A stretch of DNA of 27,589 nt from a virus. The stretch covers positions 1-27,589 of the IMG/VR virus record IMGVR_UViG_3300047374_000133, one strand, 5' to 3'. The position numbers and the translations under genes were made by a program. Below the pieces are notes generated by a model. That model was not told the origin of the DNA, did not search any database, and was given only the letters and a program-made list of their open reading frames with translations. Below are positions 2,189 through 27,589 of the stretch, in pieces (within the stretch, counting starts at the first letter, position 1; the number at the start of each line of letters is the position of its first letter).

Positions 2189-2398
2189 ATGAAAAATAAA
2201 AAAATACATCCGTTAAAATATTACAATGATCAAAGAGATCTTAAAAAAGCTCAAATGGGAAAAGCAATAAAAAGTTTTTTTCAAAATTTAGGTGATAAAA
2301 AACCTGATACAAGCAAACCTCAAAAACTAAAAAGTAATAAATGTAAGTCAAATAGTAAAAGAGGATGTAGAGGAGGCTTAAGAAATTATCAATTTTAA
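2189..2398 (+). CDS. Small basic protein (69 aa)
   Basis: Begins MKNKKIHPLKYYNDQRDLKK and ends in SKRGCRGGLRNYQF. It is Lys-rich with two Cys near the C-terminus and no recognised domain. It lies 4 nt after the preceding gene, and the 67-nt gap after it holds a candidate promoter, so it probably ends the basic-protein operon. Function unknown; it may belong with the other basic proteins. Confidence 0.7.
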   Translation: MKNKKIHPLKYYNDQRDLKKAQMGKAIKSFFQNLGDKKPDTSKPQKLKSNKCKSNSKRGCRGGLRNYQF

Positions 2399-2465: not shown

Positions 2466-2744
2466 ATGAGTAAAAAATTAGATGAAAAAAATTCAAATCT
2501 TTCTCCGGAAGAATTAAAGAAACGTAGAGAAGAGATCACAAAATTTTACAAAGATAATTTACCACATCTTAAAATTCAGGCAGAGTATGAAGAGCTTTTA
2601 GCTAGTATTGAAAAATCTAGAGCTGAAAGATTACAAGCACAAACATTTATGGCGCAGGCTTTTGCTGAAACTCCAGAAGGTCAAGAACCTAATGAAGAAG
2701 CTAAAGCATTTATGGAGGCTGTTAAAAACTTTAAAGAAGATTAA
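2466..2744 (+). CDS. Small charged helical protein (92 aa)
   Basis: Begins MSKKLDEKNSNLSPEELKKR and continues as Glu/Lys/Ala-rich helix, with Gln/Ala/Met around residues 58-70 (QTFMAQAFAETPEGQEP). No catalytic or membrane segment is visible. The length and heptad-like charge suggest a coiled coil. It is the first gene after the 2428 promoter candidate and ends 1 nt before the amidase start. Its role is unknown. Confidence 0.75.
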   Translation: MSKKLDEKNSNLSPEELKKRREEITKFYKDNLPHLKIQAEYEELLASIEKSRAERLQAQTFMAQAFAETPEGQEPNEEAKAFMEAVKNFKED

Positions 2745-2745
2745 G

Positions 2746-3636
2746 ATGGATCTTACTAAACAAAATATTAAGATTTTACAAAAAGTTGTTGGTGCTAAAC
2801 CAGATGGTTTGTATGGGCCTAATACTATTGCTAAAGTAAAAGAGTTTCAGAAAAAAAATAACTTAGTTATAACAGGTAATCCAAGTGAACAAACTTGGCA
2901 GTTTATATTAGATTTAGAATCTGAATTAGACAGTGATACTTCTAAACAATATTTTATAACAGAGTATAATCAACTAATCCATAAACATTATTTACCTGAA
3001 GGGGAATATATAAATGGGCCTATAAAGAATGAATATGTTTTTATTCATCATACAGCTGGTAGGAATAATCCATATAAGTGTATTGATCATTGGGCTAAAG
3101 ATTCCAGAGGTAGAATAGCCACTGAATTTGTATTAGGAGGTAGATCACATAACAAGTTTGATATAAACGAATATGATGGTGTTATGGTTCAAGCATTTCC
3201 TGATGGCGGTCAAGGATGGCATCTTGGTAAAACAGGATCCAGACACATGAATAGACATTCAGTTGGTTTAGAGTTATGTTCAACTGGTTATTTAGATAAA
3301 AATAACAAAACATATTTTGGAAGTTTAGTTAATGATTCTGAAATATATACATTAGATAAACCTTTTAGAGGATATTTAAAGTGGCATAATTACTCAGATA
3401 AACAGATAGAAGAAACTGAGAAGTGGTTAAAGTATATTGCTGATAGAGACAATATTGATATTAGAGAAGGATTGCAAAAATGGATTAAGAAGTATGGTGC
3501 TAATAAAGCATTTGATTTTCATGAAGATGCATATTTAGGAAAAGTAAAAGGTTTACTTACTCATACTAATGTAAGAAAAGATAAAACAGATTGTTATCCT
3601 CATGACAAGTTAGTTGAAATGATATTAAGATTATAA
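2746..3636 (+). CDS. Endolysin: PG-binding domain plus N-acetylmuramoyl-L-alanine amidase (Amidase_2 type)
   Basis: The start ATG 2746 (MDLTKQNIKILQKVVGAKPD) follows the previous stop by one base; the frame extends upstream to 2608 but would overlap that gene. The protein has 296 aa. Residues 5-55 match a peptidoglycan-binding repeat (LQKVVGAKPDGLYGPNTI ... FQKKNNL). Residues about 95-285 form a type-2 amidase: FIHHTAG with zinc-ligand candidate H101/H102, a GWHLG site near H159, HSVGLEL at 171-177, and THTNVRKDKTDCYP with H273 and C283. H...H...C ligation resembles T7 lysozyme. It would cut the amide bond between MurNAc and L-Ala at lysis. No signal peptide or membrane anchor is visible, so a holin elsewhere is presumably needed. 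Confidence 0.92.
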   Translation: MDLTKQNIKILQKVVGAKPDGLYGPNTIAKVKEFQKKNNLVITGNPSEQTWQFILDLESELDSDTSKQYFITEYNQLIHKHYLPEGEYINGPIKNEYVFIHHTAGRNNPYKCIDHWAKDSRGRIATEFVLGGRSHNKFDINEYDGVMVQAFPDGGQGWHLGKTGSRHMNRHSVGLELCSTGYLDKNNKTYFGSLVNDSEIYTLDKPFRGYLKWHNYSDKQIEETEKWLKYIADRDNIDIREGLQKWIKKYGANKAFDFHEDAYLGKVKGLLTHTNVRKDKTDCYPHDKLVEMILRL

Positions 3637-6386: not shown

Positions 6387-6621
6387 ACAAAAAGAAGCTG
6401 AAAAATATTTTGCAGGTACAGAAATTATTATTCCTGATACAGCTAGAAAAAAAGAATATAAAGGTATAGTTGTAGGTGTAGGTAAATCTGTTACAGAAAT
6501 TAATATAGGTGATATGATTCAATATAGTGATCATTGTTTACCAACAACAATGATGCACGATAATGAAGAACATTTATTAATTAATGAAGGAGATGTATTT
6601 GCAATTATAAAGAATGTATAA
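6343..6621 (+). CDS. GroES-like co-chaperonin (92 aa)
   Basis: Begins MSQKVIPVGAKLLIKQKEAE, the classic GroES opening of a beta strand with a hydrophobic-Lys pattern. Residues about 18-36 are the mobile loop, with GTEIIIPDTARKKEYKG, in which EIIIP occupies the place of the GroEL-contacting IVL tripeptide. YKGIVVGVGKSV and GDMIQYSDHCL follow as the oligomer beta core, and LLINEGDVFAIIKNV is the standard C-terminal strand. Phage GroES-like proteins (T4 Gp31) act with host GroEL to fold the capsid protein. The gene overlaps terL by 8 nt, so it is expressed with the packaging genes. Confidence 0.9.
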   Translation: MSQKVIPVGAKLLIKQKEAEKYFAGTEIIIPDTARKKEYKGIVVGVGKSVTEINIGDMIQYSDHCLPTTMMHDNEEHLLINEGDVFAIIKNV

Positions 6622-8800
6622 ATCAATATTGACATATGAAAATAATGAATGGTCTACAACTGATTTTTTAACCTATGAACATTTTAAAGAATTTATATTA
6701 GGTATATTTAGTGAACCTGGTGAGTACGGGTTTACAAGTATGTCTTATGAATTTAATAAACAGGCTAGAATTTTTAATAATCAAGGTTTTTATTGCAATA
6801 AACCTTTTAGATCAAAAGATTTTAAAACATATTGGGAAACAGAAAAAGATAAGTGCCGCAACGGAGTTATTTATAAAGATAATGGTAAGGTTTGGTATTT
6901 AACCAGAGACTATTATATGTGGTTAAACTTCTTACCAATATATGATAAGGAGGAAAAGAAGTATGGTTTTGCTAAGGTTAGAGATGCTCAATATCATATG
7001 GCATTATATGAACTATTAGCAGAACTGCATTATAAACATTCTGCAATATTGAAGAAACGTCAGATTGCTTCTTCTTACTTCCATATGGGTAAGATAATTA
7101 ATACATATTGGTTTGAAGAAGGTAGTACGTGCAAGATTGGTGCGTCACTAAAAGATTATATTAATGATAAAGGTTCATGGAAATTTTTAGATGAGTACAA
7201 GACATTTTTAAATGAGCACACTGCTTGGTATAGGCCTAGTAATCCAGAAAAAGTTTTGTTATGGCAACAGCAGATTGAAGTTAGGGTTGGTAATAGAAAA
7301 ACATCCAGAGGTCTTAAATCTAAAATACAAGGTGCTTCTTTTGAGAAAAATGCAACAACAGGTGTTGGTGGTCCAACAACTTATTTCTTTCATGAGGAAG
7401 CAGGTATTGCTCCTAAGATGATGCAAACATATGAGTACTTGCGTCCTGCAATGTCTTCAGGTATGATTACTACAGGTATGTTTATTGCTGCTGGTTCTGT
7501 AGGAGATTTAGATCAGTGTAATCCATTAAAGGAGATGATACTAAATCCGGAAGCAAATGATATATACGGTATAGAAACTAATTTATTAGATGCAGAAGGT
7601 GCTATAGGTATTGCAGGTTTATTTATACCAGAACAGTGGTCTATGCCTCCATATATTGATGAATATGGAAACTCATTAGTTAAAGAAGCATTAGAGTCTA
7701 TCTTAACAGAAAGAAAAGAATGGAAAGCTAAATTAGATGGTGAGCAATATCAGTTACGTATTTCACAAAAACCAACAAATATTAAAGAAGCTTTTGCATA
7801 TAGAAAAGAATCTATATTTCCACAAGGTATATTATCAATACAAGAAAAGAAAATTACTGATAAAGAATATCCTTATGAGTTATTAGAATTAGAAAGAGAT
7901 CAAACAGGTATTGTTGCTAAAAGAACTTCCAAGTTACCAATATCAAAATTTCCAGTGGATAAAAAGATGCAAGATAAAACTGGAGCAATTACAGTTTGGG
8001 AAAGACCAACACCCAATGCTGATTTTGGTGCATATTATGGATCTATTGACCCTGTTGGTGAAGGTAAAACAACAACATCAGATTCATTGTGTAGTATTTT
8101 TATTTATAAGAATGCTGTTGAAGTAACAAGAATTAATAAAGCCGGAGATACAGAACAGTTTATTGAAAAAGATAAATTAGTGGCATCATGGTGTGGACGT
8201 TTTGATGATATTAATAAAACACATGAGCGCTTAGAACTTTTGATTGAGTGGTATAATGCATGGACACTAGTTGAGAATAATATTAGTTTGTTTATTCAAT
8301 ATATGATATCCCGTAAAAAACAAAAGTATTTAGTTCCTAAAAATCAAATTATATTTTTAAAGGATATTGGAAGTAATAGAAGTGTATATCAAGAATATGG
8401 TTGGAAGAATACAGGAACATTATTTAAAACACATCTCATATCATATGCTATTGAGTTTATAAGAGAATCAATATATGAAGATACAGATGAGAATGGTAAT
8501 ATTATAAATACCATACTAGGAATAGAAAGAATACCTGATCCTATGTTAATTAAAGAAATGTTAGCATATTATCCTGGTCTTAACGTGGATAGACTTGTTG
8601 CATTTTCTGCTTTAGTGGCTTTTGTAAAAGTTCAACAAGCAAACAGAGGCTATGCAAAAAGACGTGAATCAGAGCAAAAATCTTTGGATAATACAGAAAA
8701 TTTGTATAAATTAAAGTATAGCCCCTTTAAAAATATTGGACGTAATAGATCTAGTAATAGCTCAAAGATAAAAAGATCAGGTTTCAAAAATTTTAGATAA
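6614..8800 (+). CDS. terL: Terminase large subunit (TerL), 728 aa
   Basis: Large ATPase-nuclease that would cut and drive DNA into the prohead. ATPase: KKRQIASS at 147-154 replaces a classical Walker A. Its Lys lies at the start (K147/K148), like the deviant lambda gpA motif, and there is no GKT. TTYFFHEEAG at 255-264 is Walker B, with E261/E262 and His at the usual Asp place. Motif III-like AAGSVGDLD lies at 292-300. Nuclease: SIDPVGEG with D479, and VDRLVAFSALVAF with D659 as RNase H-like metal sites. A basic Ser-rich tail follows. The length is usual for crAss-like and large Bacteroidota phages. Confidence 0.95.
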   Translation: MYKSILTYENNEWSTTDFLTYEHFKEFILGIFSEPGEYGFTSMSYEFNKQARIFNNQGFYCNKPFRSKDFKTYWETEKDKCRNGVIYKDNGKVWYLTRDYYMWLNFLPIYDKEEKKYGFAKVRDAQYHMALYELLAELHYKHSAILKKRQIASSYFHMGKIINTYWFEEGSTCKIGASLKDYINDKGSWKFLDEYKTFLNEHTAWYRPSNPEKVLLWQQQIEVRVGNRKTSRGLKSKIQGASFEKNATTGVGGPTTYFFHEEAGIAPKMMQTYEYLRPAMSSGMITTGMFIAAGSVGDLDQCNPLKEMILNPEANDIYGIETNLLDAEGAIGIAGLFIPEQWSMPPYIDEYGNSLVKEALESILTERKEWKAKLDGEQYQLRISQKPTNIKEAFAYRKESIFPQGILSIQEKKITDKEYPYELLELERDQTGIVAKRTSKLPISKFPVDKKMQDKTGAITVWERPTPNADFGAYYGSIDPVGEGKTTTSDSLCSIFIYKNAVEVTRINKAGDTEQFIEKDKLVASWCGRFDDINKTHERLELLIEWYNAWTLVENNISLFIQYMISRKKQKYLVPKNQIIFLKDIGSNRSVYQEYGWKNTGTLFKTHLISYAIEFIRESIYEDTDENGNIINTILGIERIPDPMLIKEMLAYYPGLNVDRLVAFSALVAFVKVQQANRGYAKRRESEQKSLDNTENLYKLKYSPFKNIGRNRSSNSSKIKRSGFKNFR

Positions 8801-8821: not shown

Positions 8822-11575
8822 ATGAAAGTACTTAATGCAATGCAGCTTAAAAATGGTGCTAAATCTACAGAAGGACCTACCTTTTCTAATTTAACACAAC
8901 CTGTTCAGTTTTTACCATATAATCAAAAAAATGAAGAGTGGGCTGCCTGGAATTTAGACTGGCTAGAATTACAAGGTATAGAGTTTTTAAAAATCAACGC
9001 AAGAAGATTATTAAAGAACTATAAGCTTGCTAAAGGTATAATAGATAAATCTGATTATATTGTAGAACCTGACAATGACTATAAGGATTTAATGGATGTT
9101 CTAACAAAAGAAGAAGATTCTGCATTAGAACTTAAATTTTATCCTATTATTCCTAATATTATAAATGTATTATCTGGGGAGTTTTCTAAAAGATATAATA
9201 AAGTTCAATTTAGAGCTGTTGATGATACTTCTTATAATGAGATGCTTGAGTTTAAAAAAGCTGAAGTTGAGTCTGCATTACTTGCTGATGCAGAAAAACA
9301 ACTATTGACAAAAATGATTCAAATGGGAGTTGACCCTAACTCAGAACAATTTGCTCAACAGTTATCTCCAGAAAATATTAAAACATTACCTCAAATAGAA
9401 GATTATTTTAGCAAGTCATATAGAAGTTCAATTGAAGAATGGGCTTCTCATCAATATGCTGTTGATGAAGAGAAGTTTGGAATGCTTGAATTAGAGGAAA
9501 GAGCATTTCGTGATATGCTTATTACTGATAGAGAGTTTTGGCATTTTAGAATGATGGAGGATGATTATGACGTAGAGTTATGGAATCCTGTCCTAACATT
9601 TTATGAAAAGTCTCCAGATCAGAGATATATATCTGATTCTAATTATGTAGGTAAAATAGATTTAATGACTGTATCTGATGCTATAGATAGATATGGATAT
9701 TTAATGAATAAAAAACAATTGGAATCATTAGAAAGAATATATCCTGCGAGATCAGCACAATATCAAGTTAATGGTTATCAAAATGATGGTTCTTATTATG
9801 ATGCAACCAGATCTCATTCATGGAACACTGAAAGTCCTTCACTAGGATATAGACAATACACTAGTAATTATTTTAATGATAGAGGTGTTGGTGGTGATAT
9901 TGTAAATCAAATATTAGATCAAAGCGAAGACTTAGCTCAGTATGGTGATAGTAACTTAATGAGAGTTACAACTATATATTGGAAGACGCAAAGAAAAATA
10001 GGTCATTTAATAAGAGTTTTAGACGATGGTGAAATTATTCAAGATATTGTTGATGAAACTTATAAAATAACTGAAAAAGGTGTATATGATACATCCATAT
10101 ATAAACAAAAGACAAAAGAAAATTTATTATATGGAGAGCATATAGATTGGATTTGGATTAATGAGGTATGGGGTGGTGTTAAACTTGGACCAAATATTCC
10201 AACATCATGGAGATCTGGTATAAGTGATGACTCTGCACCAATATATTTGGGTATTAATAGAAAGACTCCTGGAAGAATACCTTTTCAATTTAAAGGTAAT
10301 AAATCATTATATGGTTGTAAATTACCTGTAGAGGGAAGAGTATTTTCAGATAGAAATACAAGATCAACTTCATTAGTTGATTTAATGAAAGCATATCAAG
10401 TTGGATATAACATGGTTAATAATCAAATAGCTGATATCTTAGTAGATGAGCTTGGTACTGTAATTATGTTTGATCAAAATGCTTTACCTAGACATTCAAT
10501 GGGTGAAGATTGGGGTAAAAATAATTATTCTAAAGCATGGGTTGCAATGAAAGATTTTCAGATGTTACCTTTAGATACTTCTATTACTAATACAGAAAAT
10601 GCTACTAATTTTAATCACTATCAAACTCTTAATATGGAGCAGACAAGTAGATTGATGTCTAGAATTCAATTAGCTAATTATTTTAAACAACAATGTTTTG
10701 ATGCTATTGGTGTTAATCCTCAACGTTTAGGCGGTGCTGTATCTGCTGAAACTGCTACTGGTGTTGTTAATGCTATGCAGCAATCATATGCACAAACAGA
10801 AATATATTTTACGCAGCATTCAGATCATTTAATGCCAAGGGTTCATCAAATGAGAACAGATTTAGCTCAGTATTATCATAGTACAAATCCAAGTATTAGA
10901 TTGAATTATATTACTACAGAAGCAGAAAAAGTAAATTTTATTATAAACGGTACAGATTTATTATTAAGAGACTTTAATGTATTTGTAACATCAAAAACAA
11001 ATCATAGAGCAGTATTAGAACAGTTAAAACAAATGGCATTAACTAATAATACTACCGGTGCATCTATATATGAATTAGGTAATATTATTAAATCTGATAA
11101 CATTGCAGAAGTAAGTGATATTCTTAAAGATGCTGAACAAAAAATGATTCAGCAAAGAACTCAAGAAATGCAACAACAACGTGAGATGCAAGAAGCTCAA
11201 CTTCAACAACAAGCTGAAGAAGCAAGAATGAAACTTGAAGTTGAACAAAGAGATGCAGAACTTGAACGTCAAAAAGATATAACAATTGCAGAAATAAGAT
11301 CTGCAGGATATGCAGCACAATCTGATATTAATCAGAACCTAGTTAGTGATTATAGAGAATCAATGAAAGATATTCAAGAATCTACTAGATATAGAGAACA
11401 AATGAATATTAAACGTGATGAGATGGCTACTAGAAATACGGTAGAACGTTCTAAAGCAGATGTTCAGAAACAAAAAATTGCTGCTGATTTACAGATTGCA
11501 AATACAAATCTTGAGATAGCCAGAGAAAATAAAAATAAATATGATGTTAAATCTTCCAAAGATAAAAAATCATAG
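8822..11575 (+). CDS. Portal protein with long C-terminal coiled coil (917 aa)
   Basis: It lies 21 nt after terL. The first 750 residues have the mixed helix/beta composition and position of a phage portal; it would form the dodecameric ring through which TerL packages DNA. The part between residues 540 and 680 (SLVDLMKAYQVGYNMVNNQI ... MGVNPQRLGG-like NPQRLGGAVSAETATGVV) resembles the helical stem and wing regions. From about residue 765 to 905 there is a Gln/Glu/Arg-rich coiled coil (QQRTQEMQQQREMQEAQLQQ) with a low-complexity charged end. Portals of this size occur in crAss-like and large flavobacterial phages. No protease domain is visible. Confidence 0.9.
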   Translation: MKVLNAMQLKNGAKSTEGPTFSNLTQPVQFLPYNQKNEEWAAWNLDWLELQGIEFLKINARRLLKNYKLAKGIIDKSDYIVEPDNDYKDLMDVLTKEEDSALELKFYPIIPNIINVLSGEFSKRYNKVQFRAVDDTSYNEMLEFKKAEVESALLADAEKQLLTKMIQMGVDPNSEQFAQQLSPENIKTLPQIEDYFSKSYRSSIEEWASHQYAVDEEKFGMLELEERAFRDMLITDREFWHFRMMEDDYDVELWNPVLTFYEKSPDQRYISDSNYVGKIDLMTVSDAIDRYGYLMNKKQLESLERIYPARSAQYQVNGYQNDGSYYDATRSHSWNTESPSLGYRQYTSNYFNDRGVGGDIVNQILDQSEDLAQYGDSNLMRVTTIYWKTQRKIGHLIRVLDDGEIIQDIVDETYKITEKGVYDTSIYKQKTKENLLYGEHIDWIWINEVWGGVKLGPNIPTSWRSGISDDSAPIYLGINRKTPGRIPFQFKGNKSLYGCKLPVEGRVFSDRNTRSTSLVDLMKAYQVGYNMVNNQIADILVDELGTVIMFDQNALPRHSMGEDWGKNNYSKAWVAMKDFQMLPLDTSITNTENATNFNHYQTLNMEQTSRLMSRIQLANYFKQQCFDAIGVNPQRLGGAVSAETATGVVNAMQQSYAQTEIYFTQHSDHLMPRVHQMRTDLAQYYHSTNPSIRLNYITTEAEKVNFIINGTDLLLRDFNVFVTSKTNHRAVLEQLKQMALTNNTTGASIYELGNIIKSDNIAEVSDILKDAEQKMIQQRTQEMQQQREMQEAQLQQQAEEARMKLEVEQRDAELERQKDITIAEIRSAGYAAQSDINQNLVSDYRESMKDIQESTRYREQMNIKRDEMATRNTVERSKADVQKQKIAADLQIANTNLEIARENKNKYDVKSSKDKKS

Positions 11576-13031: not shown

Positions 13032-14651
13032 ATGGCAACTCCAGTATTAAACAATGGGATTTTCCTAAGAGACACTAGCTATAGTGCAAGTTCTCACGTT
13101 GATTCTTATCACTTAACTCAGATGCTTGGTTCAGCAGAACCAATGGATATGGGACCAGTAGATTTATGGGCAATGACACAAAAAGTTGAAATGCCTCTTT
13201 ATCAAATGGCTTCATTTGGTGGAAAGAACACAATTTTAGTAGACAATGCACGTGGTGAGTACAAATGGCAAACCCCTATCGCACAAGATCTTCCATACAT
13301 TGTGGCAGACATGGATCCAGGAAATACTTCAAAAGGTATTGATGGGACAACATTTAAAATTAAAATTTCTAAGAGAACATTTGGACATGGTGATATTATC
13401 ACTTATGACAAGTACAATGGTGTAGAACTTTACATTACAGCTGAGGATATTATTCCAGCAGGTGATGGATATGTTTACACAGTTCAATTAGTAAACAACA
13501 ACAACACAGCAACTCTAGACAATGCTTACTTAGCTTCTGGAACTAAATTCTTTAGAAAAGGTTCTGCACGTGGTGAGTATGGTGAAAGATTTTCTGACAT
13601 TGAAACAGGATCTGGATTCCGTGAATTCTACAACTTTGTAGGAGGAGCTGAAGCACATGTACATTATTCTATTTCTAGCCGTGCTGATCTTATGATCAAA
13701 GGTGGTTTGAATGCAGATGGTACAGTTCCTGTAACTGAGATTTGGAGAAACTTTGACAACAATTCTAATAATCCATCAGTAGCTTCTATTGAAGGATTGG
13801 TTGCTAGCATGGGTAAATCAGGAGCAAGAGAAGCATTTGAAAATGGTACTCTTACTAAAACTTTCATTACTAATATGGAAGCTGCTCACCTTTCTAAAAT
13901 TGCTACTGACATTGAAACTTACCTAATGTGGGGTAAGGGAGGTAGAATTAAACAAGATGGTCCAGATGACGTTAGATTATCTGTAGGACTTTGGTCTCAG
14001 TTAGATAACTCTTTCAAGAGAGTATATAACAAATCTTCTTTCACTCTTGATATGTTCAAATCTGAACTTTACAATTTCTATCAAGGAAAAGTTGAATTTA
14101 AAGGTCCAGATCCACAAAGATCACTTGTTGTACAAACTGGTATCGGTGGTATGCAATTAATCAACAAAGCTATTGCTGATGAAGTATATGGTTCTGGATT
14201 AGTTCAAAATGCTTCTGACATTGGTGCAGTAACAGGACAAGGTATGGATCTTGATTTTGGTTTTGCTTACACAAGCTTTACTATTCCTTTCCTTGCTAAC
14301 GTTAAGTTTGTTCTTAACCCTGCATTTGATAATCTAAACACTAATGACATAGAGAATCCATTAATTGATGGTCGTCCTCTAAGTTCTTATAGCTTTATTA
14401 TCTTTGATGTTACAGATGAAGGAAACGACAACATTCACTTGTTGAAACTTTCTTGGGATAATCAACTTAAGTGGTTCTACCAAAATGGTACTATGGACTA
14501 CATGGGAAGAACTCAAGGATTCCAATCAACTGGTAACTTTAATGGTTACAGAGTTATGATGTCGCAGACTATGCCTGCAATTTGGGTTAAAGATCCAACT
14601 AAAGTTCTTAAAATTGTAATGAGAAACCCAGTAACTGGAGGATCATTCTAA
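13032..14651 (+). CDS. Major capsid protein, HK97-fold type (539 aa)
   Basis: Follows the scaffold gene and precedes a strong terminator. Begins MATPVLNNGIFLRDTSYSAS, with an N-arm-like opening, then KNTILVDNARGEYKWQTP and RADLMIKGG near 220, IATDIETYLMWGKGGRI near 300, and a C-terminal beta-rich segment ending MRNPVTGGSF. The balanced helix and beta composition, size (about 490-550 aa in crAss-like phages) and position fit a HK97-fold shell protein. It contains no Cys. Codon use is biased to TTC, AAC, TAC and ATC compared with its neighbours, which agrees with high expression. No N-terminal delta domain is obvious; a separate scaffold is present instead. Confidence 0.9.
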   Translation: MATPVLNNGIFLRDTSYSASSHVDSYHLTQMLGSAEPMDMGPVDLWAMTQKVEMPLYQMASFGGKNTILVDNARGEYKWQTPIAQDLPYIVADMDPGNTSKGIDGTTFKIKISKRTFGHGDIITYDKYNGVELYITAEDIIPAGDGYVYTVQLVNNNNTATLDNAYLASGTKFFRKGSARGEYGERFSDIETGSGFREFYNFVGGAEAHVHYSISSRADLMIKGGLNADGTVPVTEIWRNFDNNSNNPSVASIEGLVASMGKSGAREAFENGTLTKTFITNMEAAHLSKIATDIETYLMWGKGGRIKQDGPDDVRLSVGLWSQLDNSFKRVYNKSSFTLDMFKSELYNFYQGKVEFKGPDPQRSLVVQTGIGGMQLINKAIADEVYGSGLVQNASDIGAVTGQGMDLDFGFAYTSFTIPFLANVKFVLNPAFDNLNTNDIENPLIDGRPLSSYSFIIFDVTDEGNDNIHLLKLSWDNQLKWFYQNGTMDYMGRTQGFQSTGNFNGYRVMMSQTMPAIWVKDPTKVLKIVMRNPVTGGSF

Positions 14652-16798: not shown

Positions 16799-17275
16799 AT
16801 GGATTATTCAAGAAATTTAAAAAAGAAAGGAAAAACATTAAGTAGATCATCTTCTGTTAAAGAATCAATGATGGAAAGATCAACAGATATGAAAATGGTA
16901 GATGCAATGACTGCAAGTTTAGTTGTTGAAGTTATGAATGCTGCTACAAGTTTTCACAAGTTACATTTGCAAGTTACAGGTGATGGTTCATATGCACAAC
17001 ATAAAGCATTGAATGAAATTTATGATAAGCTTCCTGATTTAGCAGATGAGATTGCAGAAGGATATCAAGGTGCTTGTGAGTTAATTTTAAATTATCCTGA
17101 GAAAGCTCCTGTTACATTATCCGGTATAGATGGTGCTATTGAATATTTAAGAATGATGAAAGTTCAAATAGATGAATTACAAGCTGTTATGCCACATTCT
17201 GAGATAGTAAATAATTTAGATATCATTAAAGATGCTGTTAATTCAGCAAAATATAAATTAATCTTTCTTTCTTAA
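16799..17275 (+). CDS. Dps/ferritin-like four-helix protein (158 aa)
   Basis: After a basic Ser-rich N-terminal arm (MDYSRNLKKKGKTLSRSSSV), the helices contain FHKLHLQVTGDGSYAQHKAL and LADEIAEGYQG. H56, H68, N72, D83 and E87 have the spacing 12-4-11-4 of the Dps ferroxidase ligands His-His-Asp-Asp-Glu (E. coli Dps H51, H63, D67, D78, E82), with Asn in the third place. The 158-aa length also fits Dps. I recall a phage family of this pattern (DUF5856), not verified. It could bind DNA by its basic arm or oxidise iron, or simply use the fold structurally. It lies within the head-tail operon, 2 nt after the adaptor gene. Confidence 0.7.
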   Translation: MDYSRNLKKKGKTLSRSSSVKESMMERSTDMKMVDAMTASLVVEVMNAATSFHKLHLQVTGDGSYAQHKALNEIYDKLPDLADEIAEGYQGACELILNYPEKAPVTLSGIDGAIEYLRMMKVQIDELQAVMPHSEIVNNLDIIKDAVNSAKYKLIFLS

Positions 17276-17354: not shown

Positions 17355-18536
17355 ATGGCTTATTTTAATCACGCATTTTGCAAGACTTTTGTTGTATCTG
17401 ATGTAGAAGAAGTTGGTGGCGTTGCTACTTCAGCTTTAACTGCAGGACAAGCAGGTCTTGTTAGCGACTCAAACTGGCAAACGCTTGCAACTGGTGCAGC
17501 TTTACCAACAGATTCACTTGTATACTTTGTACAAGGTAGTTTTTATAGTTCTGATAGTATCGGAAACAATCCAGGACATGGTGGATACAAAGAATCAGTA
17601 AAATCTAAAGGAATTAATCCTAAATTTATTAACAGACTTGCTAAACAAGATGATGTAGCTGCTGTTCAATCAACTGCTACTCTTTCTGTTGCATCTGATT
17701 GTGTTCCATGTGGTACATCTCTTTATGTAAGAATGGATGTTAAAGGAACTCCAGCATTACGTTTTTTAAATCACAATGCTTATGCAGTTGGTGATTCAGC
17801 TAATGTATGTTGTATAGATGGTCAAACTTACATTGATCCAGCTGTTGCTTTAGCAACTGCTTCTAAAATGTTATTGGCTGATCCTTTGATTTCTCCTTTT
17901 GTAGCAGAAAGATCTGGTGGAGCAATGGATGTTACTATTGCTGGTGTTACTACTCAGTACACTATTGCAGAAGTTCTTGATGGTACTTATACACCTTCAA
18001 CTGATCCTATTACAGATCAAGTAAGTGCAGAAGCAAACTTTATTGGAGCTTATGTAGATACTAAATTTGGAGATTGTTCATTTGATACTAGAGATTTTTA
18101 TGGTAAAGATCCTGTAACAATTATTCCAAGTTTACTTGATGAAACTGGTGATCCTTGTAATGATTGTGGTGTTGCTACATCCGTTACTGGAAAATCTGCT
18201 CAAACATTAGGTGAAACAGTAATTAGAGATTTACTATTATCTGAAAACTACAGACAGTCTCCTTATAACCAAGGTAATGCTGATTCTGCACGTATTCGTG
18301 AAATTGAAATGTCAGATGAGCTTCTTGCTGCTGTAGATAGAACTAGTACTTATGTAGCATATTATATTCAACACACAGTTCCTAGATATAATAATCCTTC
18401 TGGAGTATTTGATAATGATCAGTATTTATACAAAATTTATGTAGAAAATGGATCTGCAGCTGAAGCTGAAATGAATGCACTTATGGCTGATTTAGTAACT
18501 GCTAGTGGAGTTGCTTTAGAAACATTTACTGTATAA
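17355..18536 (+). CDS. Abundant tail structural protein, tail-tube candidate (393 aa)
   Basis: It is the only tail-region gene with both an individual promoter candidate plus AAAAATT leader and a strong terminator behind it, the arrangement seen for the capsid gene, so the product should be abundant. It begins MAYFNHAFCKTFVVSDVEEV and is rich in Ala, Thr, Ser and Gly; beta segments alternate with helices. There are eight Cys, with VPCG, VCCIDG and DPCNDCG clusters. The C-terminus (ELLAAVDRTSTYVAYYIQH ... VENGSA) could be a beta sandwich. A tail tube or sheath is my leading guess; no defining motif was identified. Confidence 0.55.
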   Translation: MAYFNHAFCKTFVVSDVEEVGGVATSALTAGQAGLVSDSNWQTLATGAALPTDSLVYFVQGSFYSSDSIGNNPGHGGYKESVKSKGINPKFINRLAKQDDVAAVQSTATLSVASDCVPCGTSLYVRMDVKGTPALRFLNHNAYAVGDSANVCCIDGQTYIDPAVALATASKMLLADPLISPFVAERSGGAMDVTIAGVTTQYTIAEVLDGTYTPSTDPITDQVSAEANFIGAYVDTKFGDCSFDTRDFYGKDPVTIIPSLLDETGDPCNDCGVATSVTGKSAQTLGETVIRDLLLSENYRQSPYNQGNADSARIREIEMSDELLAAVDRTSTYVAYYIQHTVPRYNNPSGVFDNDQYLYKIYVENGSAAEAEMNALMADLVTASGVALETFTV

Positions 18537-21568: not shown

Positions 21569-24500
21569 ATGGCAATTAGATTTTTTAATGATCAAGATGT
21601 ATTTGGTAATGCTACTATTGAAGGTATACTACAAGTAGGACCTGTAGGTGATGGTTTAAAAGTAGATAACTCTAGCAATGATTATAATGTTGGTATTGGG
21701 ACTGCTAGTCCTAGTGCTAAAATACATGTTGCAGGTAAAGCAATAATACAAACTTCTGGAACTGCTACTGCTCATTCGGATACAGATTTATTAATTGCTA
21801 ATTCAACAGCTGCAAGTTCAACATCTCAAATTCAGATACTTTCAGGTGTAAGTGGATCATCTAATTTATATTTTTCTGATACTGCAGCATATAGTGTTGG
21901 TGGAATACAATATGATCATACTAATAATAAAATGACTCTTAGAGTTGCTGCAGGAAGTAAAATGACTATTCTTTCTTCCGGCAACGTAGGAATAGGAACG
22001 TCTAGTCCTAGTCAAAAGCTTCACATATTTAACGCTGGTTACCCGCAAATGGCTTTAGAGTCTAACGGTGGTACTTGGCAAGTAGGTGTTAGTACAGGTA
22101 ATGATTTAGCATTTAGAAGAGGTACATCAGGCTCTAACTACCCATTATGGCTTGATAGCTCAGATAACGTAGGTGTAGGAACAACTAGTCCTAGTCAAAA
22201 GCTTGATGTAGCTGGTAACATAAAAAGTAATGGTGAATTTCAAATATTTACAGGAACTACGGACATTGGACAAATATCTAACTCATCAGGTGCTTTAAAT
22301 ATACAGGGTACATCTACAAGAGATGTAAGCTTAGGTTCAGATACAAATCCTCAATCTATTTTTATAGAAGGAACAAATGGTAACGTAGGTATTGGCACGA
22401 CTAGTCCAAGTGAGAAGTTGGAAGTCGCTGGAGCAGTTGGTAACTTTAAAACAACAGGTCATCAAATATTTCTTACAAGAAATGGTAATAATGAAATATA
22501 CGCAGTCGGCGCATCTTCAGTATTAGCTTTAGGTCAAAATGGATCTGAAAAAATGCGTATACATTCTAACGGTAACGTAGGTATTGGTACGATTAATCCT
22601 CCTTATAAATTAACAGTAGCTGGGGACACTTATGTATTTAATGCTAATCTCCATTTAAATAGTGGTTATGGTATTGTAAACGCTGGTAATACAAGCCATA
22701 AAATAGGATTTCCATCCCTTGGAAATTTTGCCTTTGAAAATGTCAACGTAGGTATAGGTACTACTAGTCCTGACAATATATTGCATATAGTAAAAGACCA
22801 AGGTGGTGTTTCAAGTGCTTTAAAATTAGAAAATAAAGCCGGAGCTGATGATACTGGATTTGATATTGATTTTAAATTAGCATCTTCTGGTTTATCAGCT
22901 AAAATAGGAGCAATAAGAACTAATAGTCCGGGAGCGGGAGACACTGATATGTTCTTTTCAACATCAACTAATGGTGTAACTACTACGGAGGCAATGCGTA
23001 TTGATTCTGCCGGCAATGTAGGTATAGGCACAACTAATCCTGGCTATAAACTTGAAATATCTGACGATACAGATACCACCGTAAATTTATTAAGACTTAG
23101 AAACGCCGACAGTTTATACTCTCAAACATGGGACTTCCAACTAGATACAGGTAAACATTTAGTAGTTACTGGAGCTAGTGGTTCTGGAGGTATTGTATTA
23201 AAACCTGGTTCAGCGGGGCTGAATGTCACCTCAACATCAGCAGCTCAAATATTTTTAAATTCTGCTACAGGTAATGACTCTGTATTGAATTTCCGCGAAA
23301 ATTCGTCTCAAAAAGGCAAAATAGGTTACGACACGTCTTTATCCGGCATAGCATTAGTTGCTGGAAGCGGAGCATTCTCATCTGCAGATATGGTGGTGCT
23401 TGATAGTGGCAACGTAGGAATAGGAACAACTAGTCCTGGAGTTAAATTAGATGTCACTGGTCAAATAAGAGCATCAAGTGGACTAGAGATATCAGGAGGC
23501 AATATAAACCTTGTAGACAATAGTAGAATAAGACTTGGTTCGTCAGTTGACTTTCAAATATATCACGACGGTTCTAATAGTTATATTGCTGATACAGGTA
23601 CAGGTACTTTGAATATTTCTTCTAACCAAATAAACCTAAATGCAAGTAACGGTGAAAACGGAATACAAATAAATGAAAACGCAGATGTAAAAATAAGATA
23701 CGATAATAGTGTTAAACTTCAAACCACAAGCACAGGCGTTAGTGTAACAGGAACTGCAACTGCAACCACTTTTTCAGGTGATTTAAACGGCACAATAAAT
23801 ACAGCAACTACAGCTGTAACAAAAGCAAACGCAACAAACGACACTACAGTAGCTACTACAGCATTTGTACAAAACTTGATAGGTACAATACCTGCAGGTT
23901 TAGTATTTCAAGGAACGTGGGATGCAGCTACAAATACACCAACACTTACAAGTGGATCAGGCACAACAGGTCATTTTTATATAGTATCAACGGATGGTTC
24001 TACTAATTTAGATGGTATAACTGATTGGAAAGTTGGTGACTGGGCTGTATTTGTAGAGCAAGGGGCTACAGACGCTTGGGAAAAAGTAGATAACTCTTCT
24101 GTATTAGACGGGTCTGGTACAGGTCAAAAAGTAGCATTATGGTCAGGTTCAGGTACATCTAATACTTTAACGGATGCACCTATAACAGTCAGTGGTAATA
24201 ACGTAGGTATTGGTACTACAAGTCCTACATCGCCTTTACACGTAGTAAACACAGTAGGAGGATGGAGTGCTTATATAAATAATGACGTTGGTACAGGCAC
24301 GCAATCAGGATTATTATTAGATGCCGGTTCAAGTTCATCAGACTTTGCTATGTATGTTAGAAATGCAGCAGGGTCAAGTGATTTATTTTCAATAAAGGGC
24401 AACGGTAACGTAGGTATCGGAACTACTAATCCTGGGGCTAAGTTAGATGTTAAGGTATCTTCAGCAAACCTAACAAACGTTATAAAATTCGGAGACGCAA

Positions 24501-27500
24501 CACCCGGGTATTTAGCTTCTGGCACTAATGGTGTCTACCTTAGTGACAGTAGTGGTAATGCAAGGATTATGTTTGAACATACTGGTAACGTAGGTATAGG
24601 TACTACTAGTCCAAGTGAAAAGCTTCATGTAGACGGTAATGCTATTGTATCTGGAATTGGAATAGGAACTTCGACTCTATATTCTAACTCAATAAACATA
24701 ACAAACTCCGGTACGCTGCGTATTGGTAACACAGAATTCCTGTCTAAATCAAGTAATGACTTATCTATATATCAACAAAAAATAAACGTAACATCAGCCG
24801 GCAACGTAGGAGTTGGTACTACTAGTCCTGCAGAAAAGCTAACAGTTTCAGGTGATGCTAATATTACAGGTAAGCTAGCGGTAGGTTCTTCTGCGGCTCA
24901 CCCATCATTCGCTTTTTACAACCAGCTAAATGCTTATTTTAACGGAGCTGTTACAATAGACGATACGTTAACCCAGTCAGGTGGTGGAACCTCAAGCTTC
25001 TCAGGCAACGTTGGTATAGGAACGACTAGTCCTGCTAATAAACTAACAGTAAGAACAAGTACAATTAATGACGGATTATATTTAGAAACTTCTCAACCTG
25101 TTACGTATGGAAAAATATACAATAGTAATTCAGAGTCTTTTCCTGTAGGAAATCTAAACTTAGCATACGGCACTAATAGTACCGCTATAATCCAAGCATT
25201 AAGTAATAGAATGTCTTTAAAAGGAGGCTACACTACTGGAGGTCAAATATCTTTCTTATCTGCTTCTACAGAGATAATGAGAATGACATCTACTGGTTTA
25301 GGTATTGGTACTACAAGTCCCTCTCAAACTTTATCTGTAGAAGGTAATATTGAGCTCGGAACTGGCGGGTACATATATGGAGACACTACAACACCTTACC
25401 TTAGATTAAATAATGCAGCAGGCGCGTTTTTAGGATACAGTACTTCTTATGTTACAGTTGGCGGTCCAACAACTGTAGTCGACGCCGGGACATATGTAGC
25501 AAGATTTAGAAGCAATAAAGTAATATTTACTCAACCTTTATTTGTAGGTACATCTAATATTAATGACACGCCTACTGCTGAACTTCAAGTTAAAGGAGCT
25601 GGAACAACATCTGCAACAACAGCTCTATTAGTACAAAACTCTGCAACAACTGAATTATTTAGAGTTAGGGACGATGGTAGCGTGTATGGAATAGGCGCTG
25701 GAGGTGTAGACACAAACGCTGCCTATGGTAAAGATGCTTTAATAAGCAACACTACAGGTTCAAATAATGTTGCAGTAGGTGCAGCATCATTATATACTAA
25801 TACTATAGGTGCTAATAATACATCGGTAGGAAGACTTGCTATATTTAGTAATTCTACAGGTTCTAATAATACATCGATTGGAATGCAATCCTTGTATAAT
25901 AACACTACAGCGAATAATAATTCAGCATTAGGTTTTCAAGCGTTATATAGTAATCAAACAGGTGGTAATAACGTAGCTATAGGATATGCTGCATTGTTTA
26001 CAAATGTAACGGGTAATAATAATATAGCAATAGGTGTAGAAGCGTTAATAAACTCTACAGCAGCTAATAATACAGCTATAGGATATCAAGCATTGTTAAG
26101 TAATACTACAGGTACATCTAACGTTGCACTTGGATTACAATCATTAAAAATTAATACAACAGGAAGTAATAATGTTGCGTTAGGTTATCAATCTTTACAT
26201 ATTAACTTAGCATCTAATAATACAGCTGTAGGTCATCAAACATTATTAGACAATACAACAGGAGCTAATTTAGTTGCTTTAGGTTATAGGGCATTATATA
26301 ATAATACTACAGGTTCAAACAATACTGCATTAGGTCATCTGTCATTGTTTGATAACACTACAGGTTCAAGTAATGTAGCAATTGGAACGTCAACATTAGA
26401 AAACAACACAGCATCTAGAAATACAGCAGTAGGATATGCTGCAATGTTTGCTAACATTACAGGTACCTTTAATGTAGCTCTAGGTTATCACGCATTAAGA
26501 GATAACACAGCATCTAACAACACAGCAGTTGGTAATGAAGCATTAAAAGATAATACTACAGGTGCACAAAATGTAGGGTTAGGTTCTTATGCTTTAGCAA
26601 ATAATACTACAGCAGGATTTAACACAGCAGTTGGTGTAAGTGCAATGTTTATTAACACTACAGGTGCAGGAAATGTAGCTTTAGGTTATCAATCGTTATA
26701 TTCAAATACTACCTCAAATGATAATACCGCGATAGGTTCACTTGCATTGCGTAATAATACAATAGGAGCAAATAATACAGCAGTAGGTAGACAATCATTA
26801 AATTTAAATACTACAGGTAATTTTAACACCGCATTAGGTCGTACATCATTATATGTAAATACTACAGGTTCTTATAATACTGCAGTTGGTAATGATTCCT
26901 TAAGAAACAACACAGCATCAAATCTTACAGCAGTAGGTTTTGAAGCATTAAAAAGTAATACAACAGGTTATGCAAACGTAGCTTTAGGAGATAGAGCATT
27001 ACGAGATAATACAACAGGTTTTGCTAATATTGCAGTAGGTCAATTAACTTTAGTATCCAATACAGGTTCTAATAATACTGCTGTAGGTAATAATGCAATG
27101 CTTACAAATACATCAGGAGCAAGTAACGTAGCGTTAGGTGTTGAATCATTAAGACAAAATACAACAGGTAATAGTAACATAGCTGTCGGTAGACGAGCAT
27201 TAAGAAACAACACAGCAAATAATAATGTTGCTATTGGTTTCCAAGCAGCGTTTAGTAACACTACAGGTACAAGTAACGTAGCAGTAGGTCACGAAGCATT
27301 ATATAATAACACAGTATCTAATAATACAGCACTAGGTTATCAAGCAGGATATGAAACAGGAAATTTAACCGGCACTAGTAATACTTTTTTAGGATATAAT
27401 GCATCTTACGGAACAGCTACCACGATTACAAACTCTACAGCGGTAGGAGCAAACGTTACATTGACTAATTCAAACACAGTTATATTAGGTAATAATGCAA

Positions 27501-27589
27501 ACGTAGGTATAGGGACGACTAGTCCAAGTAAAAAATTGCACGTTGCTGGTTCTTTCAAGGTTACTAGCGAAAGTGTTTTTGAAGGATAT
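21569..27589 (+). CDS. Giant repetitive tail fibre, 3' end beyond window (at least 2007 aa)
   Basis: Starts 12 nt after the previous stop at MAIRFFNDQDV and has no stop to the right edge, so it is incomplete. Residues 40-1390 carry 14 of the 15 NVGIGTTSP-type repeats separated by variable 50-100-residue modules; residues about 630-875 contain a cyanophage-like IYHDGSNSYI segment and a FQGTWDAATNTPTL module. Residues 1394-1929 are about 32 units of a 16/17-residue NTTGSNNVALGYQSL repeat, a YadA-like beta roll. A final NVGIGTTSP at about 1978 probably precedes a C-terminal (possibly peptidase S74) chaperone past the edge. It is Cys-free and would be a trimeric adhesin for receptor binding. Confidence 0.9.
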   Translation, partial: MAIRFFNDQDVFGNATIEGILQVGPVGDGLKVDNSSNDYNVGIGTASPSAKIHVAGKAIIQTSGTATAHSDTDLLIANSTAASSTSQIQILSGVSGSSNLYFSDTAAYSVGGIQYDHTNNKMTLRVAAGSKMTILSSGNVGIGTSSPSQKLHIFNAGYPQMALESNGGTWQVGVSTGNDLAFRRGTSGSNYPLWLDSSDNVGVGTTSPSQKLDVAGNIKSNGEFQIFTGTTDIGQISNSSGALNIQGTSTRDVSLGSDTNPQSIFIEGTNGNVGIGTTSPSEKLEVAGAVGNFKTTGHQIFLTRNGNNEIYAVGASSVLALGQNGSEKMRIHSNGNVGIGTINPPYKLTVAGDTYVFNANLHLNSGYGIVNAGNTSHKIGFPSLGNFAFENVNVGIGTTSPDNILHIVKDQGGVSSALKLENKAGADDTGFDIDFKLASSGLSAKIGAIRTNSPGAGDTDMFFSTSTNGVTTTEAMRIDSAGNVGIGTTNPGYKLEISDDTDTTVNLLRLRNADSLYSQTWDFQLDTGKHLVVTGASGSGGIVLKPGSAGLNVTSTSAAQIFLNSATGNDSVLNFRENSSQKGKIGYDTSLSGIALVAGSGAFSSADMVVLDSGNVGIGTTSPGVKLDVTGQIRASSGLEISGGNINLVDNSRIRLGSSVDFQIYHDGSNSYIADTGTGTLNISSNQINLNASNGENGIQINENADVKIRYDNSVKLQTTSTGVSVTGTATATTFSGDLNGTINTATTAVTKANATNDTTVATTAFVQNLIGTIPAGLVFQGTWDAATNTPTLTSGSGTTGHFYIVSTDGSTNLDGITDWKVGDWAVFVEQGATDAWEKVDNSSVLDGSGTGQKVALWSGSGTSNTLTDAPITVSGNNVGIGTTSPTSPLHVVNTVGGWSAYINNDVGTGTQSGLLLDAGSSSSDFAMYVRNAAGSSDLFSIKGNGNVGIGTTNPGAKLDVKVSSANLTNVIKFGDATPGYLASGTNGVYLSDSSGNARIMFEHTGNVGIGTTSPSEKLHVDGNAIVSGIGIGTSTLYSNSINITNSGTLRIGNTEFLSKSSNDLSIYQQKINVTSAGNVGVGTTSPAEKLTVSGDANITGKLAVGSSAAHPSFAFYNQLNAYFNGAVTIDDTLTQSGGGTSSFSGNVGIGTTSPANKLTVRTSTINDGLYLETSQPVTYGKIYNSNSESFPVGNLNLAYGTNSTAIIQALSNRMSLKGGYTTGGQISFLSASTEIMRMTSTGLGIGTTSPSQTLSVEGNIELGTGGYIYGDTTTPYLRLNNAAGAFLGYSTSYVTVGGPTTVVDAGTYVARFRSNKVIFTQPLFVGTSNINDTPTAELQVKGAGTTSATTALLVQNSATTELFRVRDDGSVYGIGAGGVDTNAAYGKDALISNTTGSNNVAVGAASLYTNTIGANNTSVGRLAIFSNSTGSNNTSIGMQSLYNNTTANNNSALGFQALYSNQTGGNNVAIGYAALFTNVTGNNNIAIGVEALINSTAANNTAIGYQALLSNTTGTSNVALGLQSLKINTTGSNNVALGYQSLHINLASNNTAVGHQTLLDNTTGANLVALGYRALYNNTTGSNNTALGHLSLFDNTTGSSNVAIGTSTLENNTASRNTAVGYAAMFANITGTFNVALGYHALRDNTASNNTAVGNEALKDNTTGAQNVGLGSYALANNTTAGFNTAVGVSAMFINTTGAGNVALGYQSLYSNTTSNDNTAIGSLALRNNTIGANNTAVGRQSLNLNTTGNFNTALGRTSLYVNTTGSYNTAVGNDSLRNNTASNLTAVGFEALKSNTTGYANVALGDRALRDNTTGFANIAVGQLTLVSNTGSNNTAVGNNAMLTNTSGASNVALGVESLRQNTTGNSNIAVGRRALRNNTANNNVAIGFQAAFSNTTGTSNVAVGHEALYNNTVSNNTALGYQAGYETGNLTGTSNTFLGYNASYGTATTITNSTAVGANVTLTNSNTVILGNNANVGIGTTSPSKKLHVAGSFKVTSESVFEGY
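21686..27550 (+). repeat. Dispersed AACGTAGGTATAGGTAC-ACTAGTCC repeats (15 copies)
   Basis: Copies of the NVGIGTTSP-encoding element begin at 21686, 21983, 22166, 22382, 22574, 22745, 23015, 23411, 24200, 24407, 24587, 24803, 25007, about 25298 and 27500. Most have AACGTAGG and ACTAGTCC, more conserved than the protein alone needs. The span given encloses the whole set. Confidence 0.8.
25748..27355 (+). repeat. Tandem 48/51-nt repeat array in the fibre gene
   Basis: About 32 in-frame units. The 51-nt units encode NTTGxxNVALGYxxLxx and seven or eight 48-nt units encode NTASNNTAVGxxxLxx. The units are divergent at DNA level but keep the N-T-T-G and A-x-G anchors. There are no indels that break the frame. 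Confidence 0.9.

Follow-up and report, generated by a model that had tools for sequence, protein, structure and literature searches.

A DUF5856 protein with a predicted Dps-like fold and metal site, encoded in an optional slot of a marine crAss-like phage

The window analysed here, the whole stretch of 27,589 nt, comes from an uncultured contig of a marine crAss-like phage. A small gene for a Dps-like protein starts there two bases after the stop codon of a ring protein gene (Table 1). The locus raises the question of what a putative mini-ferritin does among virion genes: whether it is a Dps at all, whether it travels in the particle, and whether the phage needs it. Earlier work already includes Dps-like proteins of phages, a 'ferritin' in virions and proteins of crAss-like phages annotated as Dps. 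What is new is the union of these in a single family whose invariant site has been tested, the recurrence of its genes in a portal/ring neighbourhood, and its pattern of presence and absence in a marine crAss-like clade. A literature search, outside which most subscription journals lay, found no paper stating the joined family, the portal/ring recurrence or the slot pattern.

Table 1. Features of the window that bear on the Dps-like gene
Feature	Position	Strand	Basis
Terminase large subunit	6614..8800	+	PHROG_6681, E 5.4e-62
Portal protein	8822..11575	+	PHROG_6547, E 1.2e-92
Major capsid protein (crAss type)	13032..14651	+	Pfam Crass_capsid, E 1.5e-30
Ring (connector) protein, 235 aa	16089..16796	+	Profile match to phiCrAss001 ring protein; csAssE-Sib match
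DUF5856/Dps-like protein, 158 aa	16799..17275	+	ATG ORF, Pfam, PHROG, AlphaFold
N-terminal arm, residues 1-37, basic (net +4), largely disordered	16799..16909	+	Net charge; pLDDT
H53 and H56 codons; H56 is the first ferroxidase-type His	16955..16966	+	Invariant in both motif-free sets
H68 (invariant) and N72 (variable position) codons	17000..17014	+	Residue 72 is N/G/E/Q/R
D83 and E87 codons; other half of the metal site	17045..17059	+	Invariant
Virion-module protein downstream, 393 aa, far side of the optional slot	17355..18536	+	Order in relatives

The gene and its neighbours

Judged by its sequence matches, the window is part of a crAss-like phage virion gene module, since a ring homologue, a protein of the Crass_capsid family, and portal and terminase matches all occur in it. 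The ring assignment comes from two comparisons. A profile made from the 235-aa neighbour and its relatives matches the phiCrAss001 ring protein 4/5 gp34 (E 9e-4) over positions 1-218, that is, over the whole length, and tblastn finds the csAssE-Sib 'ring protein' at E 8e-8. The initial annotation had placed the Dps-like gene between connector and tail genes. The upstream half of that placement agrees with the gp34 match, but the downstream half does not find the same backing: the 393- and 190-aa proteins that follow have no PHROG match above noise and no match to a solved structure.

By capsid protein, the nearest isolate is Leptolyngbya phage Lbo-JY46 (PP438436.1, L087; 28.6% identical), in which the virion genes have a similar order. 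This phage infects cyanobacteria, and is thus a crAss-like phage with a host outside Bacteroidota. Its ring-like gene and the gene that follows have no annotated gene of Dps-like size between them.

The 158-aa reading frame is under purifying selection. In four pairs of relatives dN/dS is about 0.10-0.14, at dS values above 1 that are saturated, and in two pairs containing the window copy it is 0.17 and 0.29.

Family, fold and metal site

The product of the gene matches Pfam DUF5856 (PF19174; E 7.5e-15, 56.2 bits against a curated cut-off of 34.6) and PHROG_858 (E 1.1e-18), whose label is 'starvation-inducible transcriptional regulator'. The family includes T4-type rI.-1, and its invariant residues H56, H68, Y75, D83, E87 and G91 are all present in the window protein. 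The PF00210 Ferritin profile does not match the window protein, and gives a sub-threshold match (E 6e-4) to one relative (L047). By these profiles the protein is a member of DUF5856 and not a canonical Dps/Ferritin of PF00210. T4 rI.-1 belongs to the same family by the curated cut-off and has the same invariant residues, but differs in setting, being encoded in the rI operon. The window clade also differs from most of DUF5856 in an A-B loop that is three residues longer and in its basic N-terminal arm.

The connection to Dps can be followed in the sequence itself. HP-NAP, a Dps protein, is reached from the single window sequence at E 0.0065 and from the profile at 4.6e-5. In the profile alignment H56, H68, N72, D83 and E87 fall on H25, H37, E41, D52 and E56 of HP-NAP with an identical 12-4-11-4 spacing, so that the residues and spacing read by the initial annotation are confirmed. 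Shuffling the protein produces such a spaced five-residue match in 11 of 100,000 cases. Measured against the Dps pattern H-x11-H-x3-D-x10-D-x3-E, the protein appears to keep four of the five metal-site residues, in exact register with HP-NAP, MsDps2 and E. coli Dps; the fifth is Asn here and Glu in HP-NAP. A flexible basic arm, as is present in some Dps, had also been proposed, and the charge of the N-terminus agrees with this, as do pLDDT values below 50 for residues 1-23 in the AlphaFold model. The arm is net positive in close window-clade loci, whereas many members elsewhere in DUF5856 have a short or neutral one.

The structure prediction and overlay on Dps that had been suggested at the outset were carried out. 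The AlphaFold model is a confident four-helix bundle (mean pLDDT 87.9), with helices at 29-58, 64-93, 110-130 and 134-157 and no fifth (E) helix. MsDps2 is the closest PDB structure (Z 16.5, 2.1 Å over 127 residues), and HP-NAP, MsDps2 and E. coli Dps all align at Z of about 15-16.5. Dps and other ferritin-like proteins make up the 50 best PDB hits. Against the PDB, Foldseek gives E-values of just 0.01. The model thus supports a Dps-like fold for the window protein. The short BC helix of Dps does not appear between residues 94 and 109, and it is missing also from the model of a member with a short A-B loop (L070). The latter model has the same four helices (pLDDT 94.2) and again finds MsDps2 first, at a Z of 13.8 that is near the level reachable by unrelated helical bundles; the case for this member is therefore carried by sequence evidence. 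Besides the missing BC helix, the lack of a PF00210 match and the Asn at the fifth position, the window protein is set apart from bacterial Dps by a low identity (about 10-15%) and by a Leu where Dps has a Trp after the first ligand His. In Dps the ferroxidase site is shared by two subunits, the D and E ligands being supplied by the partner, so residues lying apart in a monomer model would not refute a Dps-like site.

Similar folds are predicted for proteins of the gut crAss-like phages cr106_1 ('Putative DpsA'), cr108_1 and ctDAq1, which are about 16-24% identical to the window protein over structural alignments. Fold matches in BFVD include three proteins of 333-763 aa from uncultured tailed phages that are named 'Prohead protease' (A0A6J7WPK9, A0A6J7WIS1 and A0A6J7XDU5). 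Their models suggest that a Dps domain has been fused to a capsid protease.

Conservation of the metal site was judged in two motif-free sets, and relatives that had been fetched through the peptide AQHKALN were left out for positions 66-72. Set (a) comprises nine members from named phages, found by tblastn, together with the window protein (mean identity 32%); set (b) comprises 16 distinct proteins chosen through a close ring-protein neighbour. The ten divergent members of set (a) share 11 invariant columns in a core of 111, and H53, H56, H68, D83 and E87 are among these (hypergeometric P 5.5e-5 for the four ligands). The same five residues are present in 16/16 proteins of set (b), where position 69 is K, I, L or M and position 72 is N or G. 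Across DUF5856 and the window protein, the invariant residues are H53, H56, S64, H68, A70, Y75, D83, E87 and G91. The H56-H68 spacing is 12, as in Dps, in the window clade, in the portal-linked crAss-like type represented by L047 and in zth2-2, and it is 9 in most DUF5856 members.

These alignments indicate that selection holds the four Dps-site residues and H53, in keeping with the Dps-type site first proposed. They do not bear out the significance that the initial annotation gave to an Asp-to-Asn change at residue 72. The apparent invariance of N72 arose from the AQHKALN search patterns, and in the tblastn set this position is N, E, Q, G or R. Since it varies freely, the change means little, and N72 was dropped as a telling ligand substitution. 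The general picture is of one family, marked by a strictly kept Dps-type metal site, that unites T4 rI.-1, the PHROG 'starvation-inducible transcriptional regulator', the Kuttervirus virion 'ferritin' peptides and a late gene of crAss-like phages.

An optional slot in a recurrent neighbourhood

The ring protein was used to retrieve 80 loci, out of 582 relatives reported, and the state of the slot behind the ring gene can be read in 78 of them. The Dps-like gene is present in 19 and cleanly absent in 59. In the non-carriers, whose ring protein is 76-86% identical, the 393-aa gene directly follows the ring gene after a gap of 99-134 nt. The ring-protein tree requires a minimum of six changes in the state of the slot, of which well-supported branches force at least two, and gain and loss are not distinguishable in direction. 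The gene is thus an accessory cassette of the late module, and its place there is fixed. Elsewhere in 14 long non-carrier contigs (65-116 kb, with no completeness estimate) no credible DUF5856 or PF00210 gene was found. Together with the 59 empty slots, this argues that the gene is not needed for assembly and is not a fixed head-tail part. Because so many sister phages do without it, its benefit would be conditional, depending on host or habitat, rather than a building requirement. Pairs with and without the gene in one fixed slot amount to a natural experiment on what a phage gains from a mini-ferritin.

Two ways in which non-carriers might compensate were considered and rejected. An ordinary ferritin replacing the lost gene is not seen, there being no PF00210 match in 22 contigs. 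A Dps domain within the giant ORFs (3.3-4.8 thousand aa) of non-carriers was suggested by seven weak DUF5856 matches (E 3-7e-4), but these fall in a HEAFH...EEYxADEF segment that is zinc-metallopeptidase-like and lacks the Dps motif. This stretch, in mid-ORF in crAss-like phages (L177-L183), may itself belong to an enzyme that processes giant cargo or polymerase proteins.

In other phages, the neighbourhood of the gene varies around a common theme. In another crAss-like group (L047 to L063; also L079) and in the podophages DSL-LC05 and ctNMl277, a DUF5856 gene comes directly after the portal gene. Members of a third group sit either between terminase and portal (L070, L078) or adjacent to the portal gene (L071 and L076, the latter directly behind it). 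Several of these reading frames touch or overlap their portal or ring neighbours. A position next to portal, terminase or ring genes recurs in several lineages. For portal/ring adjacency a binomial estimate gives anything between 1e-7 and 0.08, according to the way lineages are merged and the chance rate that is taken, and this range is so wide that we claim recurrence and give no P value.

The gene is found in other settings too, near a DNA polymerase gene (L064), tail fibre genes (L080) or a holin gene (P19250A), and in the T4 rI operon. The member in this lysis-inhibition operon and the one beside the P19250A holin show that members also occur outside virion modules. On two contigs of more than 100 kb, DUF5856 genes directly behind the DNA polymerase gene encode an N-terminal extension of ~140 aa (L064:4674-5447 and L066:4638-5420). 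A QueE-like radical SAM gene lies near a divergent DUF5856 gene at L085:996-1799 and L083:3177-3980, the QueE match being from L085. No member of the family turned up when bacterial genomes were searched with a single strict peptide pattern.

Virion or infected cell

Two distant relatives in the same Pfam family, both from Ackermannviridae, have been detected in virions by mass spectrometry: LIMEstone1 ORF78, with 3 unique peptides and 28.2% coverage (PMC3296691 Table 2), and Sajous1 gp217, with 10 spectra and a Phyre2 model called 'Ferritin' (PMC10892097). Both genes were located in their genomes and score as DUF5856, as does phiR1-37 g280, which carries the note 'phage structural protein'. 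The two Ackermannviridae proteins keep the metal residues, but unlike the window protein they are 117 aa long, have no basic arm and have Gly at position 72, and their genes adjoin other virion-protein genes of unknown role, not portal or ring genes. The virion spectra of relatives are few, and come from myoviruses with a different gene context. By analogy with these two proteins, the presence of the window protein in the virion is plausible. The earlier suggestion that it may be in the virion can stand to that extent, but not as a fixed part, given the 59 of 78 slots from which the gene is absent. An attempt to derive a copy number from the published spectral counts was dropped. The copy numbers of sheath and portal are known from T4, and the counts of these two proteins per kDa deviate from them.

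The reading we prefer, at a probability of roughly 0.4, is that the gene encodes an optional DUF5856 mini-ferritin, a metal-binding homologue of Dps that is carried in the virion or made together with it. The protein would be translated late, with the ring protein, and would travel with the virion, inside or attached to it, at the portal and tail barrel or in the cargo space, or would at least be made at assembly. Its subunits may pair in such a way that Fe(II) (or Zn/Mn) is bound between H56/H68 of one subunit and D83/E87 of its partner. Oxidation of Fe(II) with peroxide or oxygen would then clear both iron and peroxide from around the DNA, whether packaged or entering the cell, which the basic arm may touch. 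The optional presence of the gene favours a conditional benefit of this kind over a structural duty.

The main rival, which we regard as unlikely, confines the protein to the infected cell, where it would detoxify iron and peroxide late in infection, its place in the operon setting the timing only. Such a role, in which the infected cell is shielded from oxidative stress, is the published proposal for Dps-like enzymes of gut phages (PMC8008677), and it suits both an optional gene and the members outside virion modules (T4 rI operon, P19250A). The Dps and Mn-catalase of Gratiaviridae and other gut phages resemble the present case in being phage-encoded Dps-like enzymes, but they are described as aids to an anaerobic host, whereas the window gene lies in a head-tail module (PMC8008677). 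The LIMEstone1 and Sajous1 peptides come from purified virions (PMC3296691, PMC10892097), which speaks against a purely intracellular protein, as does the repeated portal/ring neighbourhood with overlapping or near-touching reading frames. A structural role, in which the ferritin fold has been recruited as a fitting of the neck or portal vertex and its metal site serves just to stabilise a dimer (e.g. with Zn), would account for portal, ring and terminase neighbours and for Dps-fold proteins named 'Prohead protease' in BFVD. It is nevertheless improbable, as the gene is cleanly absent from 59 relatives close enough to share most of the ring sequence.

The two other proposals come from better-studied members of the family. 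As suggested for T4 rI.-1, the protein might act in lysis timing or regulation, the ferritin fold being incidental; T4-type members do lie in the rI operon, and overexpression of rI.-1 slightly prolongs lysis inhibition (PMC6832632). We give this little credence for the window, where no recognised lysis gene is directly beside the Dps-like gene, and every member examined retains the metal residues. The ferrojan-horse idea, in which virion iron engages the iron uptake of the host, was put forward for Sajous1 gp217, a DUF5856 protein, but tonB, feoB and double mutants were infected about as efficiently as the wild type (PMC10892097). Here, moreover, the neighbours are ring genes and not fibre genes, and this reading seems very improbable. 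A wider form of the preferred reading, itself doubtful, would make DUF5856 in general a virion-borne mini-ferritin, repeatedly acquired by unrelated tailed phages as an optional portal/connector-side cassette, that delivers a peroxide/iron sink with the DNA. If the virion-borne reading is true, T4 rI.-1 and its relatives in >1000 phage records would have a common biochemical role.

Two further observations concern other genes of the window. Four small, very Lys/Arg-rich proteins are encoded in a cluster at 793-1062, 1059-1364, 1891-2184 and 2189-2398 (+), upstream of an amidase-like ORF at 2608-3636, and are possibly DNA-condensing or internal head proteins. At the other end, an open-ended, giant fibre-like ORF of >2000 aa (21569-27589, +) has repeated 'GNVGIGTTSP' units followed by 'NNTAVGYQAL' units, the latter resembling YadA-type head repeats.
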